From Erysipelothrix amsterdamensis (GTDB taxonomy: Bacteria; Bacillota_I; Bacilli_A; Erysipelotrichales; Erysipelotrichaceae): a stretch of DNA of 64,000 bases. The position numbers and the translations under genes are program-made. Shown here in pieces: positions 48,815 through 56,929 of this stretch (within the stretch, counting starts at the first letter, position 1; every line of letters begins with the position of its first letter). The stretch is taken from contig NZ_OW659496.1 in NCBI RefSeq assembly GCF_940143175.1, forward strand, positions 1,116,001 to 1,180,000, written 5' to 3'. The notes beneath the pieces were generated by a model that saw only the letters and a program-made list of their open reading frames with translations, did not search any database and had not been told where the DNA came from.

Positions 48815-49735
48815 TTACTTGTTTCGTCTATTTTGTCCTACCATTTCATATGGGATTGTTAAAGCATGGATACGATCTACCAATCTTTTAGCTCGAATCT
48901 CATCAGAAGTTCCCTTATTATCGAGTTTGTATAGGTCAACAAGCATGTCAGGACTGTAATTACTTGTTATTATCGTCTTTTTTTTGTTTTCAAGTCGTTC
49001 ATTTAGAATCGACAATAAGATTTCATCACGACTCCATGACGTGATTGGCTCCGCACCCAAATCATCCAAAACAAGCAATGGAACCTTTCTTAGCTTTCTT
49101 AACGTATATTCCATCTCGGTCGGATGTGTAAATAATTGCTTTAAATGGCTCATAAGTTTTGGTACATGAATAAACGCAACATTGCGACCACTCTTCGCAA
49201 AGTCGTTTGAAACACACGCACTTAAATAACTCTTTCCAATCCCTAAATTACCGTATAAATAGTATCCTGGTTTATCATTTTCAACAAAGTTAATCATATC
49301 TTCAAGAACGCCCAAATAATTAGGGTTCTCATTTTCAATTGATATTTTCGAAAATAATGCATCGTGCAAACTAAGTGGTAAATCAAAGATAACATACTGA
49401 CTTAAATAAGCATTTTCTTCTGCAATCTCGCGAACAATTGGAAGTTCAAAAATTTGCTCAGATAATATCCCAGTTGATTGATCATAAATTAGGTCTACAT
49501 ATTGACCCAAACTTGGATCGTTTTCAAGTTCTTCAGCTGAGTATGATTCAGCTTTTCGCTTATTTAGAACCCAATTTTTGAATTGAAACGCATTCGCTTC
49601 AACAATCGAATCTGGACACTCAAATCGTTCCATGAAATCGATTATTTCTGGTAATATACGTAAACGTTCAAACGTTTCGACACGCTTTTGAACTTGCTCA
49701 TCGGATAACTCAAATTTTAGATTACGTAAACTCAT
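48815..49735 (-). CDS. dnaI: Helicase loader DnaI
   Basis: AAA+ ATPase that loads the replicative helicase with DnaB. An N-terminal helicase-interaction domain, then Walker A GNLGIGKSY, Walker B VPLLVLDDLGAEP, and sensor ITSNYSPDML. 306 residues. It starts directly at the end of dnaB, as in Bacillus. Confidence 0.93.
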   Translation of the reverse strand: MSLRNLKFELSDEQVQKRVETFERLRILPEIIDFMERFECPDSIVEANAFQFKNWVLNKRKAESYSAEELENDPSLGQYVDLIYDQSTGILSEQIFELPIVREIAEENAYLSQYVIFDLPLSLHDALFSKISIENENPNYLGVLEDMINFVENDKPGYYLYGNLGIGKSYLSACVSNDFAKSGRNVAFIHVPKLMSHLKQLFTHPTEMEYTLRKLRKVPLLVLDDLGAEPITSWSRDEILLSILNERLENKKKTIITSNYSPDMLVDLYKLDNKGTSDEIRAKRLVDRIHALTIPYEMVGQNRRNK

Positions 49736-50896
49736 CTAGATCTCTCCTTTACTTAGCATCCCTTTTAATCGAGATTTTAGTTCATCAACATCTTTATCAA
49801 TAGTAGTATCTGTGGAATAGGTTGGTGCTGCAACTTCAACCTTCGGTTTAGGTACACGCTTATTACTTGATGAATTTGGCGCCTCGCGTTCTTTAAGAGC
49901 ATCCTCCAATGTTTTTACACCACGACGTTTCCATGATGATGCAACCTTTTCAACAAATCCTCTGTTTAAATTTTTGTCATTTGTTTCTAGAATATACTCT
50001 ACAAGTACATTAATGACCTTATTATCAAAGCCGAAATTATGCTCTAAAGATTTTAACAGTTTGCGATCTGCATCAATAATATATGTATCCTCTTGTTTAT
50101 ATGCCAAGAAGCTAACAGGATCAAGTTCATATGGATCTGAAACACTTTCAACACTTTGCGTTCCGTGATTTTTTTCAATAAGATACTGAAATTTTTTCGA
50201 ATCAAAATCACCCGTTTCAAAATTCGTAGAAGCCATTAATACTGATTTCATGTCCAAGTAGTTCAAATTATAAAAAGAGCCAAACACCCCTACTTTTTCA
50301 CGAACAAGCTCGGTTCGAAATGCCAATGGATACATAACGTTACTTATCGACTTAAAGAAGCCCTCAACATCGAATTTATGCTTACGATCTGTGTCTGTAC
50401 CTTCAATGCGTTTTGATGTATATGATTCTTCTAACGACTCATCCCAGGATGATAATCGAGATAAATCAAAACTTGCAGATATTTCATTATCCAATTCAAC
50501 ACAAATACTTTTACGATAGCGTGAACAAACCTCAATAAAAGCTTCGTTCCCTCGTACAATTGCATAGAGTCTTCCAAAGGTTGGATGTTGTAAGAAATCA
50601 TGAGGACTAAGCGGTGGTGTCAATACAAGCGTTAAAACTCCTGTGTCATAGGTACGAATAAGTGCAAATCGCTCTAACTCTTTTCGATAATCGTTTAAAT
50701 CCGATGTCCCAAGGTGCAACATATGAGTCAAAGTTTTAATTGTTACCTCCGACTCAAATTGACCAAACTCATAAAGTGTTAAATATAAACTTAATGCAGG
50801 ATATGAAAAAAGAGGTTGATATAAGAGGATCAATGACTCCATTTGATCGGGTGCTATTTTAAAATCTACATTTGTTTTATATACGACTTCTTGCAT
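49736..50896 (-). CDS. dnaB: Replication initiation and membrane attachment protein DnaB (Firmicutes type)
   Basis: Part of the DnaD-DnaB-DnaI primosome that brings the helicase to the origin. N-terminal winged-helix region (LYQPLFSYPALSLYLTLYEFG) and C-terminal DnaB/DnaD domain (NFGFDNKVINVLVEYILETNDKNLN, then WKRRGVKTLEDAL). 386 residues from ATG 50896, which overlaps the coaE stop. A TTG one codon earlier has equally good spacing to GGAGG. Confidence 0.92.
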   Translation of the reverse strand: MQEVVYKTNVDFKIAPDQMESLILLYQPLFSYPALSLYLTLYEFGQFESEVTIKTLTHMLHLGTSDLNDYRKELERFALIRTYDTGVLTLVLTPPLSPHDFLQHPTFGRLYAIVRGNEAFIEVCSRYRKSICVELDNEISASFDLSRLSSWDESLEESYTSKRIEGTDTDRKHKFDVEGFFKSISNVMYPLAFRTELVREKVGVFGSFYNLNYLDMKSVLMASTNFETGDFDSKKFQYLIEKNHGTQSVESVSDPYELDPVSFLAYKQEDTYIIDADRKLLKSLEHNFGFDNKVINVLVEYILETNDKNLNRGFVEKVASSWKRRGVKTLEDALKEREAPNSSSNKRVPKPKVEVAAPTYSTDTTIDKDVDELKSRLKGMLSKGEI

Positions 50897-51483
50897 CAAT
50901 TGTATCCTCCTTTTTTTATTTTTTCAATTAACTTCTCAGTGTCCCGATTTAAGTCAACGATCGTACTATTATTACATAGAATATAGTCTGATTTTTCTTC
51001 TTTTATCTTTTCCGAATACTGACGATTCATTCTTCGATCAATATCTTCAGACTTCATACCACGATTTAATAACCTTTTAATCCGAGAATCATAATCAGCA
51101 CTCACCATAATGATAAGGTCAAACAGATCCTCCATCTCTGACTCGAAAAGAAGCGGTACTTCGAAAAAAATCAATGTCTTTTTATCATCATGAATATTCT
51201 GGATAAATGCTCTTACTTCCGCAAAAACTTTTTCTTCAAGTCGTTCGAGTAATTTAGAATTTTTAAATAATATTCCAGACATAATTTGTCGATCCACCGT
51301 TTTATCAAGCCGAAGAATTTCAGGTCCCAATAATTCAATAATAAAATCATATAAAATGCCCTCTGGTTCGTAAAAAGAATGTGTCAAACGATCCATGTCA
51401 TAAACTTCATAACCTAATTCAACTATATGATGACTTACACTCGACTTCCCGGCTCCAATTGTTCCAGTTATTCCAATTTTCAT
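50896..51483 (-). CDS. coaE: Dephospho-CoA kinase
   Basis: Last step of coenzyme A synthesis. P-loop GITGTIGAGKSSV at the start, the DMDRLTH block, and FEVPLLFESEM. 195 residues. ATG at 51483 has AAGGTG five bases upstream and overlaps mutM by four bases (ATGA). The polA-mutM-coaE-dnaB-dnaI order follows Bacillus, without nrdR. Confidence 0.95.
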   Translation of the reverse strand: MKIGITGTIGAGKSSVSHHIVELGYEVYDMDRLTHSFYEPEGILYDFIIELLGPEILRLDKTVDRQIMSGILFKNSKLLERLEEKVFAEVRAFIQNIHDDKKTLIFFEVPLLFESEMEDLFDLIIMVSADYDSRIKRLLNRGMKSEDIDRRMNRQYSEKIKEEKSDYILCNNSTIVDLNRDTEKLIEKIKKGGYN

Positions 51484-52301
51484 ATCTGCACCTTCTGACA
51501 TTTTTCACAAAATACAGTTGATCGACCCGATACAACAATTCGTTTCATAATCGAACCACAACGCGAACACGGATCGCCTGCTCTCCCATATGCATTAAGG
51601 TTAATTTGGAAACGACCCGATACATTAAGCGATGAAGTGTATGAACGCACAGTTGTTCCTCCGGCTTTGATTGCGTTACTAAGGACAACCTTCGTCGTCT
51701 CTACAAGTAAATCGCACTGTTTCATCGTTATTTTCGAACCCGTAGTGAGAGGATGAATTTGAGTTTCATAAAGAATTTCATCTGCATATATATTACCAAT
51801 TCCTGCAATAATACTTTGATCCAATAATATTGTTTTCATAACACGGTTGGAATGATGAATTTTCTGATAGATGTATTCACCATTCAAATTTGTATCAAAT
51901 GGCTCTAAACCTAGGTTTTTTGTTTCTAAATATTTTAGTGGCTCTTTGACGATAGCCATACGTGAGAATTTTCGTGTATCTAAATAGTGAATCGTGCCAC
52001 CATCATAATTAATAACACAGTGCGTATGCTTCGATGGAGCTTTATCGTAATCGTAAAGATGAAACTTTCCTTCCATTCTTAAGTGAAGAATCCAATGCAA
52101 TCCATTAGACATCTCAAACCAGAGGTATTTCCCGCGACGATGAAATGCCTGAAAGCTTGAGCCTACCAGACTCTCTAGTGGATATTCAGATTGATCTTCG
52201 AGTAATTTTGGATAAATAAAATCTATCGAATCAATATGTTTGTCTTTGAGAGACTTCTCAAGTGTTCGTATAATTGTCTCAACTTCTGGTAATTCTGGCA
52301 T
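51480..52301 (-). CDS. mutM: Formamidopyrimidine-DNA glycosylase
   Basis: Base-excision repair enzyme removing 8-oxoguanine. It starts MPELPEVETI, the catalytic N-terminus (Pro2, Glu3), and ends with the zinc finger CSRCGSIMKRIVVSGRSTVF and CEKC. 273 residues from ATG 52301, the start fixed by the invariant PELPEVE. It overlaps the polA stop region. Confidence 0.97.
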   Translation of the reverse strand: MPELPEVETIIRTLEKSLKDKHIDSIDFIYPKLLEDQSEYPLESLVGSSFQAFHRRGKYLWFEMSNGLHWILHLRMEGKFHLYDYDKAPSKHTHCVINYDGGTIHYLDTRKFSRMAIVKEPLKYLETKNLGLEPFDTNLNGEYIYQKIHHSNRVMKTILLDQSIIAGIGNIYADEILYETQIHPLTTGSKITMKQCDLLVETTKVVLSNAIKAGGTTVRSYTSSLNVSGRFQINLNAYGRAGDPCSRCGSIMKRIVVSGRSTVFCEKCQKVQI

Positions 52302-52303
52302 AC

Positions 52304-54805
52304 TTAATACCAATCCTTACCTGTATCCACAGAAACGTTTAAATCAATTGGCCATGAGACAATGTGTTCCATAACTGATACCATCAAATCTTGAATGTAT
52401 TCAAGTTCATCATCATAAACATCAAATACGAGCTCATCATGAACTTGTAAGATCATCGACGATCTATAGTTATTTGACGTCAATAATTCATCTGCTTTGA
52501 TCATTGCTATTTTGATAATATCTGCAGCCGTACCTTGAATCGGCGCATTCATCGCTGCACGCTTTCCAAAATCTTTCACTGCACGATTCGCATCATAGAT
52601 TTCAGGAATATAACGACGACGATTAAAAAGCGTCTTAACGTAACCATCACGCAAACAGTCTTCAACGACAGAATCCATATATTTTGTAATGTTAGGGTAA
52701 ATTTCGTTATATCGTGTAATAAAATGACGTGCTTCTGGAATTGTTATATCCAACTGTTTTGAAAGTCCATACTCTGACATACCATAGACAATTCCAAAGT
52801 TAACACTTTTTGCTTGACGTCGCATAGTACTTGTTACATCTTCAACACCAAATATAGCTTTCGCTGTTTCAGAGTGGATATCATGACCTCCGTTAAATGC
52901 TTCCATCATACGTTTTTCATCTGCTAAATAAGAGAGTACACGGAGTTCAATTTGAGAATAATCAATTGACATTAAGGTACAGCCTTCGGACGCTACAAAG
53001 GCTTTCCGAATCATTCGTGTTTCTTCGTCACGAACCGAAATATTTTGTAAATTTGGATCACTTGACGATAATCGACCTGTTTGTGTTGCGTGTTGATTAA
53101 AAGAAGTATGAATTTTACCATCAGCATGAATATGCTTCGTTAAACCTACAGCATAAGTACTATAAAGTTTTTGATACTTTCGATATTCTAAAATTGGAGC
53201 TATGATTGCATGTTCTTCAATTAAGCCTTCAAGCACATCCACAGCAGTTGAACGTTTCTTTTTAGTAGGCAATTGGAGATGGTCAAATAATACCTCTGCA
53301 AGTTGTTTTGGCGAATTTAAATTGAATTCCATCCCTGCAAGTTCATAAACTTGATTGCTGAGTGTCTCGATTTTTTGATGTGTAACGCGTGCGATTTCAT
53401 CTAGAACGCTTCGATCAACATTAATTCCTCTAAACTCACACTTCGATAGAATCGGAACTAAAGGCTTTTCAATCTCTTCATATACTGAATAAACTTCAAT
53501 CTTATCTGCTTCAGATTTTAGTGTATTAAATTGGGTAAGTATTGCTTGAGTAAATGCTGCACCTTTTTCCATACCTTCATATTCATGAAACCATAAACCA
53601 AATTCATCTTTTAATCGTGCCATAGTCGTTATTGACGAGTTCACAATAAATGCAAGAAGTAATAAATCATCAAATTGATTCATTATTTCTATATCGTTTT
53701 CTAAACAAAATCGATAGAGTGACTTAGACGAGTCAACCACAATAGAAATATCCGATGAAATGAGCGCTCTAAAAGCCTCATTTCCAACCATTTCTCCAAA
53801 TGTTAAATAAATATTCTCTTTACCATCGGAAAGGTAACACCCTTCTAGGTTTCCTTTTTTGTCAAGTTCCATTGAAATTGCAATCATCGACTTTTTCCAA
53901 GATAAATCCAAATCAATAAATTTGATTGTCTCTTTTTCAACCACTTCGACATCATAATTATCAGTAATGAGTGAATTCATATCATATTTACGATAGAAAG
54001 CATTTAATGACTCGTTTGGTATCTCATACTTGATGCTGGAAAGATCAATATCAAGTGGAACAGAGGTATGTATTTCAGCCAATTGATAAGACATCCTCGC
54101 TTGTTCTTCGAATTCGCGAATTTTTTCGCCCATTTTCCCTTTAATTTCTTCTTTATGCATATACAAATTGTCAAAAGTACCATACTGCCCAAGAAGTTTA
54201 AGTGCAGTTTTCTCACCGATTGATGGCACACCAGGAATATTATCACTCGCATCACCCATTAACGCTTTCATATCTACAATTTGTTTTGGTTCAATACCCA
54301 TTTCATCCATTAAACTTTTTTTATCCATAAGGCGTAAATCCGTAAGACCTTTTTTCATAAGCAAAACATCAACATTATCATCAATAAGTTGCAACATGTC
54401 ACGATCACTAGTTAAAATTTCAACTTTATAATCCGGATACATTTTTGACATTGTTCCGATAATATCGTCCGCCTCGTAACCACTTAGTTCAAACCGTTGA
54501 ATTGGATACGCATCTAAAAATTCACGTACAAGCGCAAATTGAGACACCAATTCTTCATCAACCTCTTTACGAGTCCCTTTATATGCATCAAACATATCAT
54601 GACGAAACGTTTTATCCTTTGTATCAAAAGCCACAAGTACATGTGTAGGATCAATGATTTCTATAGCTTTAGCAAGCATTGTTGAAAAGCCATATACAGC
54701 ATTGGTGACAACTCCTGAACTGGACTTCATGTATCCCCTTGAAAGCGTTCCATAGTAAGCTCTAAAAAGCATTGAATTCCCGTCTATTAATAATAATTTA
54801 TTCAT
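52304..54805 (-). CDS. polA: DNA polymerase I
   Basis: Repair and Okazaki-fragment polymerase (833 residues). N-terminal 5'-3' exonuclease (LLIDGNSMLFRAYYG, YEADDIIGT, GDASDNIPGVPSIGEKTA). The middle domain lacks the acidic exonuclease residues, so no proofreading is expected, as in Bacillus. C-terminal polymerase motifs: SIDYSQIELRVLSYLA, RRQAKSVNFGIVYG and QVHDELVFDV. First gene of the replication and repair operon. Confidence 0.97.
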   Translation of the reverse strand: MNKLLLIDGNSMLFRAYYGTLSRGYMKSSSGVVTNAVYGFSTMLAKAIEIIDPTHVLVAFDTKDKTFRHDMFDAYKGTRKEVDEELVSQFALVREFLDAYPIQRFELSGYEADDIIGTMSKMYPDYKVEILTSDRDMLQLIDDNVDVLLMKKGLTDLRLMDKKSLMDEMGIEPKQIVDMKALMGDASDNIPGVPSIGEKTALKLLGQYGTFDNLYMHKEEIKGKMGEKIREFEEQARMSYQLAEIHTSVPLDIDLSSIKYEIPNESLNAFYRKYDMNSLITDNYDVEVVEKETIKFIDLDLSWKKSMIAISMELDKKGNLEGCYLSDGKENIYLTFGEMVGNEAFRALISSDISIVVDSSKSLYRFCLENDIEIMNQFDDLLLLAFIVNSSITTMARLKDEFGLWFHEYEGMEKGAAFTQAILTQFNTLKSEADKIEVYSVYEEIEKPLVPILSKCEFRGINVDRSVLDEIARVTHQKIETLSNQVYELAGMEFNLNSPKQLAEVLFDHLQLPTKKKRSTAVDVLEGLIEEHAIIAPILEYRKYQKLYSTYAVGLTKHIHADGKIHTSFNQHATQTGRLSSSDPNLQNISVRDEETRMIRKAFVASEGCTLMSIDYSQIELRVLSYLADEKRMMEAFNGGHDIHSETAKAIFGVEDVTSTMRRQAKSVNFGIVYGMSEYGLSKQLDITIPEARHFITRYNEIYPNITKYMDSVVEDCLRDGYVKTLFNRRRYIPEIYDANRAVKDFGKRAAMNAPIQGTAADIIKIAMIKADELLTSNNYRSSMILQVHDELVFDVYDDELEYIQDLMVSVMEHIVSWPIDLNVSVDTGKDWY

Positions 54806-54828: not shown

Positions 54829-54867
54829 AAAACCCTTGGGATTACTTAGCAATCGTCTCAAGGGTTT
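54829..54867 (-). terminator. Intrinsic terminator after the ZnuA-like lipoprotein gene
   Basis: Minus strand AAACCCTTG and CAAGGGTTTT pair across a loop of about 20 bases that includes the stop codon. It separates the lipoprotein gene from polA. Confidence 0.65.
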
Positions 54868-55804
54868 CTAGATTAAGTCTCATTTTCGCGATGTAATCAT
54901 AATTCGCTTCGATATCTTTATCTGATAGATTATAAAGATTGCTTAATTCAATTTGTGTTAAATTAAACTCTGTTTTTAATTGATTAAATAATTTTACGTA
55001 TTCTTCAGGCATATTCTCTTCATATGCAATGAACTGAACGCCATCTTTCGCAATTCGTGCTCGAATCGCATTGAGCATCTCTTCATCTGGTAGAACACCG
55101 TATTTTGATAATGTCGCTGGATAAACACCGATATTATAGCTCTTTTGCCAGTTGCCAAAAGATGGTGTCATCGATACAAATTTAATTCCTTTTTCGGAAT
55201 CACGTAAAAGTTGATATTGTGCTTGAAGACCTGTTAACTCTACTTCTAGTGTTTCAAATTGCTCTGTAAAATACGCCTCTTCATCTGGATAAGTCTGTAC
55301 GAGCCAATCTTTGATTGTTCGCGCCATTGAAGTCATCGCTAAAGGATCCATCCATAAAAACGGATCTTTGTCATATTGATCAACTCCAGTAAAAGCATCC
55401 GACTCATAATATTCAGATTCAATTGCATGCGATTGTCCATCAACAACAACATTTGTGTATCGTTTAAATGGATATAACATGGATCGTTCCGATAAATCAA
55501 TCATCTGTAATTTAGAGTTTTGAAGATCATCCAAGTAGAGTTGCCAATAAGGCTGTAATTCATTAATATAAAAAATTGTATCTGCTTTTTTTATAATTTC
55601 TTGAAAGTCATCTTTTACCGTTGCCTGTTGAGGTATTAAACCTGTGTCAATGCGCTGAACGTTAACACGTTCTCCCGCAAGACGTTCTACTAGGAACTGA
55701 ATCGGATAATTCGTAACAATTACATTCCTACTTCTAGGAACACATCCTGACAACGTACCCAGTATGATAACCAACACTAGTAATTTACTCATCAATCGTT
55801 TCAT
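54842..55804 (-). CDS. ZnuA/TroA-like lipoprotein with degenerate metal site
   Basis: Lipid-anchored substrate-binding protein of the zinc/manganese type (320 residues). Lipobox LSGC, Cys21. The fold pattern is kept (VTNYPIQFLVERLAGERVNV, KADTIFYINELQPYW, DPFLWMDPLAM, YEENMP). But the histidines that bind metal are replaced: Gln59-Gln60 where PHxYE should be, Phe149 in DPFLW instead of DPHLW, and MTPSFGN instead of SHxAFGY. Only the acidic ligand Glu262 remains. No permease or ATPase is adjacent. It probably no longer binds zinc in the usual way. ATG 55804 has GAGG six bases upstream. Confidence 0.85.
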   Translation of the reverse strand: MKRLMSKLLVLVIILGTLSGCVPRSRNVIVTNYPIQFLVERLAGERVNVQRIDTGLIPQQATVKDDFQEIIKKADTIFYINELQPYWQLYLDDLQNSKLQMIDLSERSMLYPFKRYTNVVVDGQSHAIESEYYESDAFTGVDQYDKDPFLWMDPLAMTSMARTIKDWLVQTYPDEEAYFTEQFETLEVELTGLQAQYQLLRDSEKGIKFVSMTPSFGNWQKSYNIGVYPATLSKYGVLPDEEMLNAIRARIAKDGVQFIAYEENMPEEYVKLFNQLKTEFNLTQIELSNLYNLSDKDIEANYDYIAKMRLNLETLETIAK

Positions 55805-55834: not shown

Positions 55835-56929
55835 CTAATTTTCTTCAGGGATAACCCAATTATTCTTTCTCAAGTTGAATAATGCTCGTATTGAGAAGTA
55901 CAATGGCATCGAAATCAAGATCCCTACAAAGCCAAATAAAACACTCGATGCGAAAAACGCAAATAAGGACCAGAGCGGTTCGATTTTATCACGCTTGGAG
56001 TAAACCATAGGAGAAACTACATAACCATCAACATTTGATAGAATAACCAATCCGATTGTAAGAATAATCACTCTCGGTAATGGTAACGTTAAAGCCGTTA
56101 GGATTCCCAATACATGCACGACGGTTGGACCAATATATGGAATTAACAATCCAAATGCTGTTAATACTCCGAGAACGAATGCATAATTATGTCCAACAGC
56201 TAAATAAAGCAAACTATACTCAATACATGTAATTGTCATAATCACAACGAGTGTCCCTAAATAGCGACTAACCGCATGATCAATAACAATGATTGAATTT
56301 CCAAGCTTTGGAGAGATATTATTCGCAATACGTAAAACGCTCCCCGTAAAATTTTCATAATCGAATACAAAATACATCCCGATAATAAACGAAAAAATAC
56401 CCGTAGTGATTGTTGAAAAAATCTTTGATATAAACTGCGAAGCAGCTGCTGGTAGTGTTGGTATCTGACCCACAATCCCATTAAGCATTCCCATCACTTG
56501 TTTAAAAATATCATCTGCCCACGGAGAAGGATTATTATGATTAATTTCTTTATAGTAATTATAGAGTTGTTGAATTCCATCCATACTATTACCGATTAAC
56601 TGCGAAATATCTGTATACAATGACGGTAAGATCGATGAAAAGAGCAGCACTATCAAAACCACAAATAATACAAGCGTAATTGGAACACTAATTGCTCTTT
56701 TAATATTATATTTTTCAAAAAACACCGCAATCGGTCTTACAATATATGCAAGCGCAAATCCAATAATAAATGGCAGCAGAATTCGCTTAGCTAATTCAAA
56801 TGCATGTTGCCATACAGCCCATGTTTGCATCAATAAGAAAACACTTAATAAAAATAACATAAATGGAACAAGTTGTTTCCAACTGAAATGATCGTCAAAA
56901 AAATTTTGAATACGTTGAAAAATGTTCAT
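55835..56929 (-). CDS. AI-2E/YtvI-family membrane transporter
   Basis: Polytopic membrane protein of 364 residues with eight or so helices. The LLPFIIGFALAYIVRPIAVFFEK stretch near residue 50 and FGLLIPYIGPTVVHVLGIL near 250 are signatures of the family once called UPF0118. Members export small molecules or exchange ions; the substrate here cannot be told. It follows mreD by 25 bases. Confidence 0.88.
   Translation of the reverse strand: MNIFQRIQNFFDDHFSWKQLVPFMLFLLSVFLLMQTWAVWQHAFELAKRILLPFIIGFALAYIVRPIAVFFEKYNIKRAISVPITLVLFVVLIVLLFSSILPSLYTDISQLIGNSMDGIQQLYNYYKEINHNNPSPWADDIFKQVMGMLNGIVGQIPTLPAAASQFISKIFSTITTGIFSFIIGMYFVFDYENFTGSVLRIANNISPKLGNSIIVIDHAVSRYLGTLVVIMTITCIEYSLLYLAVGHNYAFVLGVLTAFGLLIPYIGPTVVHVLGILTALTLPLPRVIILTIGLVILSNVDGYVVSPMVYSKRDKIEPLWSLFAFFASSVLFGFVGILISMPLYFSIRALFNLRKNNWVIPEEN

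Follow-up and report, generated by a model that had tools for sequence, protein, structure and literature searches.

An Orphan Lipoprotein Family of Erysipelotrichaceae with the Fold of Zinc-Binding Proteins, without Their Zinc Histidines and Possibly Released from Metal Import

The 64,000-nucleotide stretch of Erysipelothrix amsterdamensis DNA analyzed here, hereafter the window (assembly GCF_940143175.1, contig NZ_OW659496.1, positions 1,116,001 to 1,180,000 of the forward strand), carries on its minus strand a coding sequence (54842..55804) for a 320-residue lipoprotein that resembles the substrate-binding proteins (SBPs) of zinc and manganese ATP-binding cassette (ABC) importers and from which the three zinc histidines have been lost. 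An earlier, sequence-only reading of this DNA treated it as a single gene; it is a member of an orthologous family in Erysipelotrichaceae, referred to here as the orphan family. The gene starts with ATG at 55804, with an in-frame TTG 6 bases upstream, and stops at 54842. As in other Gram-positive lipoproteins, a signal peptide with the lipobox LSGC leads to a lipid-anchor cysteine, Cys21 (55742..55804, minus strand), which is present in 85/85 orthologues. The product aligns with almost the full length of the PF01297 profile (E 1.5e-28; 100.4 bits against a curated cut-off of 29), a profile that 61/61 members of the orthologue alignment match as well, and the NCBIfam models for AdcA, AztC and ZnuA stay below their curated cut-offs (55.8 of 700, 30.1 of 350 and 24 of 268 bits, respectively). 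Among solved structures, the nearest to it in sequence are AdcA of S. pneumoniae (7jj8, the best PDB sequence match) and YcdH of B. subtilis. An AlphaFold model, built from 61 orthologues (the window protein and 60 of the best 80 of 156 loci), reached a mean predicted local distance difference test score (pLDDT) of 92.3. With this predicted model, Foldseek returned AdcA (7jj9, 1.6e-17), and VIA-align returned AztC with a Z of 27.4 and a root-mean-square deviation of 2.5 over 264 residues, Z ranging from 23.8 to 27.4 across the 50 entries listed and standing at about 26 for Lmb/Lbp. The profile match, the closest solved relatives, the predicted model and its fold matches therefore point together to a two-lobed fold that, as modelled, matches the metal SBPs of cluster A-I. 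The sequence-only reading had described a ZnuA/TroA-like lipoprotein with its lipobox and fold blocks kept, and had named structure prediction as a check; open reading frame, lipobox, profile and model all agree with it.

Zinc in AdcA is held by His63, His140, His204 and Glu279 (available text of PMC7858048). When the residue register is taken from alignments to solved AdcA (7jj8) and six canonical relatives, these positions are occupied in the window protein by Gln59 (55628..55630), Phe149 (55358..55360), Thr213 (55166..55168) and Glu262 (55019..55021), all on the minus strand, exactly the residues that the sequence-only reading had picked out (Gln59-Gln60, Phe149 in DPFLW, Thr213 in MTPSFGN, and only Glu262 remaining). 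Over 85 aligned orthologues, the basis of all column counts given here, position 59 is Gln in 79 and His in none, position 149 is variable (Tyr in 34, Ile in 13, Met in 13, Phe in 11, Asn in 6, and others) and likewise His in none, position 213 is Thr in 79, Ser in 5 and His in 1, and position 262, the only ligand kept, is Glu in 81 and Asp in 4. The single His213 belongs to Erysipelothrix sp. HDW6A (L040 10001-10963; VHPSFGNWQ), where positions 59 and 149 are Gln and Phe. The set of three histidines with Glu, Asp or water that coordinates the metal in functional zinc and manganese SBPs of cluster A-I was thus not found in the 85 orthologues, nor is His or Cys conserved in any of their mature columns, the highest His count being 38/85 at position 79. 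The median number of histidines per protein is 2, against 7-15 in the six canonical relatives, and the window protein has one, H126. This residue, close to an acidic loop, had been suggested to sense metal; that suggestion fell, as the column is His in only 7/85 orthologues, and a metal site at His126 was rejected.

The absence of a zinc site is supported by the finding that AdcA with its three histidines changed to alanine no longer binds zinc (available text of PMC7858048). However, an AztC mutant lacking two histidines still bound zinc (PMC9820375, in the portion available), which calls for caution in concluding that the orphan protein has no zinc site. As far as the accessible part of PMC7731109 covers the matter, all characterised cluster A-I SBPs, with the exception of ZrgA, retain the zinc ligands and a tryptophan, and one tryptophan is absolutely conserved in the group. 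The latter probably corresponds to W151 of the DPxxW motif, which is present in 85/85 orthologues of the orphan family.

Two other blocks are conserved in the family. Residues 111-133 (55406..55474, minus strand; Y-x-F-x-R-Y-T ... E-x-x-Y-Y), with F113, R115 and Y133 each in 84/85 orthologues, occupy the place of the canonical His-rich loop and are predicted to form a beta-hairpin, with strands at 115-121 and 124-130 in the model. Residues 211-239 (55088..55174, minus strand) form a new motif in the orthologue alignment, S-M-T-P-S-F-G-N-W-Q-K ... V-Y-P-x-x-L-S-K-Y-G-x-L-P, which has the lowest mean entropy among the blocks examined and in which W219, Y228, P229, S233, G236 and P239 are found in 85/85. 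Conserved residues are Y33, Y86, F113, R115, Y133, D147, W151, D153, S159, W219, Q220, K/R221, Y228, S233, K/R234, G236 and N311, some of which (Y33, D147, W151 and N311, for example) belong to the fold, as canonical relatives have them too. As a set, columns 59, 213 and 262 stand out as conserved: among random triples of columns, 1.9% score as low. The ratio of nonsynonymous to synonymous substitution rates (dN/dS) is 0.023 against E. tonsillarum (L034) and 0.020 against L006, two congeners, values that are rough because synonymous sites are near saturation; for polA the ratio is 0.043 against E. tonsillarum, and the dN of the orphan gene is lower than that of polA against the same congener. 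By this ratio, selection on the gene is strongly purifying. In 17 orthologues, 32 columns are invariant.

Of 195 sampled Erysipelotrichaceae genomes, 151 have a strong orthologue (E below 1e-60) and 157 any match, the six weak ones being taken as canonical paralogues. With weak hits included, matches extend to 46/59 sampled genera of the family, among commensal and environmental members. At order level (1e-30) 208/294 genomes matched, all within the same family, and at class level (1e-40) 25/296 did, 24 in the family and one, G323, outside it. Two copies among the matches listed have an internal stop. One genome (G020; L028 1492-2409) has a second, diverged copy with 36% identity to the window protein and Ser at position 59. 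Spread by viruses was considered and dropped, as the viral contigs searched held no relative of the orphan protein. No description of the orphan family was found in the open-licence papers searched, and a term search of the available text of two Erysipelothrix papers (PMC4968806, PMC7083082) gave no recognisable mention of the protein.

The observation of the sequence-only reading that no ABC partner lies nearby holds beyond the window. The genome has only three permeases of the ABC-3 (ZnuB/TroC-type) class, at genome positions 50744, 51862 and 1081951, none of them linked to the gene and the last about 88 kb from it. An AdcCB-like ABC-3 permease/ATPase pair with no adjoining SBP gene is found at 1081924-1083391 and a TroABCD-like operon at genome positions 49037-52959, and the genome already holds AdcA-like and TroA-like SBPs for these two systems. 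The gene for the AdcA-like SBP (L171, G000:C1:1516306-1520214) is separated by about 435 kb from the ABC permease/ATPase that it probably partners, and stands between genes for two mutually similar secreted proteins of 467 residues. Across the family, ABC-3 permeases were found in 79/195 genomes at E<=1e-5. At that threshold none was detected in 84 of the 151 carriers of a strong orthologue, including 44 of the 80 with completeness of at least 95% and the single-contig genome G018; the cognate permease that a functional zinc or manganese SBP would have is, in these hosts, missing from the search results. The orphan protein is the only PF01297 protein in 5/8 other family genomes examined (G014, G054, G068, G073 and G076), so that its function can be studied there without paralogues.

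The history of the family was approached through a maximum-likelihood tree of 82 rows, from which the four ligand columns were excluded and 17 of 99 rows omitted. The family's proteins lie on one side of a branch with 100/100 support. A sister group (100/99) from the order of G323, which we guess to be perhaps Izemoplasmatales, joins the Erysipelotrichaceae family at 96/97, and a quick tree of all 99 rows agrees. The sister SBPs are encoded between ftsH and lysS in 16/16 loci, with none of five ABC probe proteins finding a match at any of the 16. In the comparison of ligands among relatives (rows L214, L158-L160, L163, L166, L167 and L237 omitted), the sister group (L157 5911-6900, L173-L188) keeps His at positions 59 and 149 as well as Glu262, lacks His at 213 in 23/23 rows, and has His in the 232-236 loop in 23/23 (two pairs being identical). 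It could thus still bind metal, possibly at a site in which one ligand has moved. Like the orphan family, it is an orphan in a housekeeping locus, has lost the 213-position His and, in part of the group, has W219, whereas the histidines that it retains at 59 and 149 are gone from the orphan family. Read most simply, the aligned columns indicate that His at 213 was already gone when the two groups diverged and that the remaining two disappeared along the branch leading to the Erysipelotrichaceae proteins, an order that we infer, as the root is not proven. A third orphan lineage of ZnuA-fold lipoproteins, from a family with small genomes (f12, L218-L227), has mostly Asp/Asn/Ser, Glu and Asn/Ser/Asp at the three His positions; 9/10 rows lack all three histidines, one has His at 59, and no match to the same five ABC probes was found at 10/10 loci. 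By contrast, six proteins of f11/f15 and three second SBPs of f22 adjoin ABC genes. The latter (L234-L236) have Glu or Gly at 59 and Gln at 262 and keep both other histidines, and in seven further ZnuA-family proteins (L191, L195, L198, L201, L202, L213 and L217) Arg replaces the third His, in a GGRF/GDRF/SGRF motif, with the other two kept.

The surroundings of the gene were compared in the best 80 of 156 loci, with a downstream gene available for 79 and an upstream gene for 77. Directly downstream in the window (52304..54805, minus strand) is a gene that we take to be polA, which follows on the same strand in 71/79 loci with a median gap of 41 bases; among the 8 loci where it does not follow, L061 shows an insert that looks like a transposase and L089 what is probably an antisense open reading frame, judged by eye. 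Directly upstream (55835..56929, minus strand) lies what is presumably an AI-2E-type permease, shared by 19/77 loci, the others having an M50-type protease (25), radC (17), MreD-like proteins (13) or other genes (3). With polA steady and the upstream genes varied, the position of the gene is conserved and no upstream partner is. Upstream genes for proteins of about 190 and 257 residues, seen in several genera and initially resembling an ATPase and a permease, were considered as an ABC partner and dropped, as their sequences read as what we take to be SpoIVFA/SpoIVFB-like. A link to the Mre system was also dropped, since MreC occurs in 106/195 family genomes, yet none was found in 74/151 carriers at E<=1e-4.

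The loss of three histidines, the strong selection and the frequent lack of the cognate permease class mean that the protein probably does a different job. We propose, with a probability of roughly two in three, that the family is a clade-wide derivative of an SBP that was freed from metal ABC import and whose conserved aromatic and polar residues make up a putative site for another ligand or partner. According to this model, an SBP in an ancestor of Erysipelotrichaceae would have lost its zinc histidines and exchanged the His-rich loop for a conserved beta-hairpin, it would have acquired a conserved aromatic and polar set (Q59, Y86, R115, T213, N218-W219-Q220-K221, Y228, K/R234 and E262), and the gene would have settled beside polA, to be retained since then independently of any metal ABC importer. 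The anchored protein would most likely act as a receptor whose two lobes close either on a protein partner or on a ligand other than a transition metal, such as a peptide or small molecule, with a role in sensing, scavenging or scaffolding instead of zinc or manganese import. Because aromatic and polar residues are conserved, we infer such a ligand or partner, bound in a cleft that these residues would line. The repurposing put forward by the sequence-only reading is therefore the part of that interpretation that stands, well supported by the ligand loss across the family, the purifying selection, the new motifs and the 84/151 carriers without an ABC-3 permease; its metal-sensing His126 is the part that does not. 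Several observations weigh against the model: the congener HDW6A has His at 213; the four loops that hold the ligands in AdcA, when tested together, show no significant excess of conservation over the rest (12% of circular shifts are as low); 67/151 carriers, that of the window included, have an ABC-3 permease that the orphan SBP could borrow; and single ligands also change among the comparison proteins, where His is absent at 213 in 8/36 and kept at 149 in 36/36, so that the loss of any single ligand would say little by itself.

An alternate scenario would leave the protein in transport, as the SBP of some other ABC transporter or of a secondary permease with a non-metal substrate. The SBP fold with its conserved, altered site and the AI-2E-type permease at 19/77 loci are consistent with this; however, no transporter gene accompanies the orphan gene throughout, the upstream neighbor varying among loci, and we regard the scenario as unlikely. 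It is more improbable still that the protein serves metal uptake through unusual ligands, sharing an AdcCB- or TroBCD-type transporter encoded elsewhere. Permease-sharing orphan SBPs are known in streptococci (accessible part of PMC7731109), E262 is retained, and the genome of the window has both the SBP-less permease/ATPase pair and the TroABCD-like genes, but these two systems are already served, no His or Cys is conserved, and more than half of the carriers yielded no ABC-3 permease at all. A main function as an adhesin or host-factor binder, in the manner of laminin-binding Lmb, would fit a surface lipoprotein that shares the Lmb/Lbp fold; given the spread over commensal and environmental members and the fixed place in a housekeeping gene block, which would better suit a basic cell function, we consider it very improbable. 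That the gene is the degenerating remnant of one for a zinc-binding protein, as its lost ligands alone might suggest, is scarcely credible and was rejected, being contradicted by a dN/dS of about 0.02, a dN below that of polA, the 32 invariant columns and the mere two copies with internal stops among the matches listed.

Within the preferred model of a derivative freed from metal import, a fuller history can be offered tentatively: a family-wide non-transport receptor, in which the SBP outlasted the ABC permease of many hosts and its metal site became a cleft for an organic ligand or partner, the sister ftsH-lysS lineage representing an earlier step with the third His moved and two kept. The series from canonical proteins through the two-His sister group to the group with no His provides a testable case of a binding protein leaving transport. 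Further, annotation by Pfam-type profiles would label these proteins as zinc-uptake components, at more than three times the cut-off score, though most carriers lack a detectable ABC-3 permease, and such labels mislead attempts to reconstruct how metals are taken up in this gut- and animal-associated family, to which Erysipelothrix belongs.

Among known systems, ZrgA of Vibrio cholerae is similar in being a protein associated with zinc import that lacks the classical ligands (PMC7731109, available text). The orphan protein contrasts with it in its classical fold and missing ABC genes. Lmb and AdcAII share the cluster A-I lipoprotein fold and are often encoded apart from ABC genes; they differ in binding zinc, through histidines that the orphan protein does not have. 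Fold, lipid anchor, Glu position and W151 are shared with the N-terminal domain of AdcA (7jj8/7jj9) and the Gram-positive zinc SBPs of cluster A-I group I, from which the orphan family differs in the replacement of all three zinc histidines, in having no linked ABC genes, in persisting where the permease class is absent from the genome, and in the conserved hairpin that it carries where those proteins have a His-rich loop.
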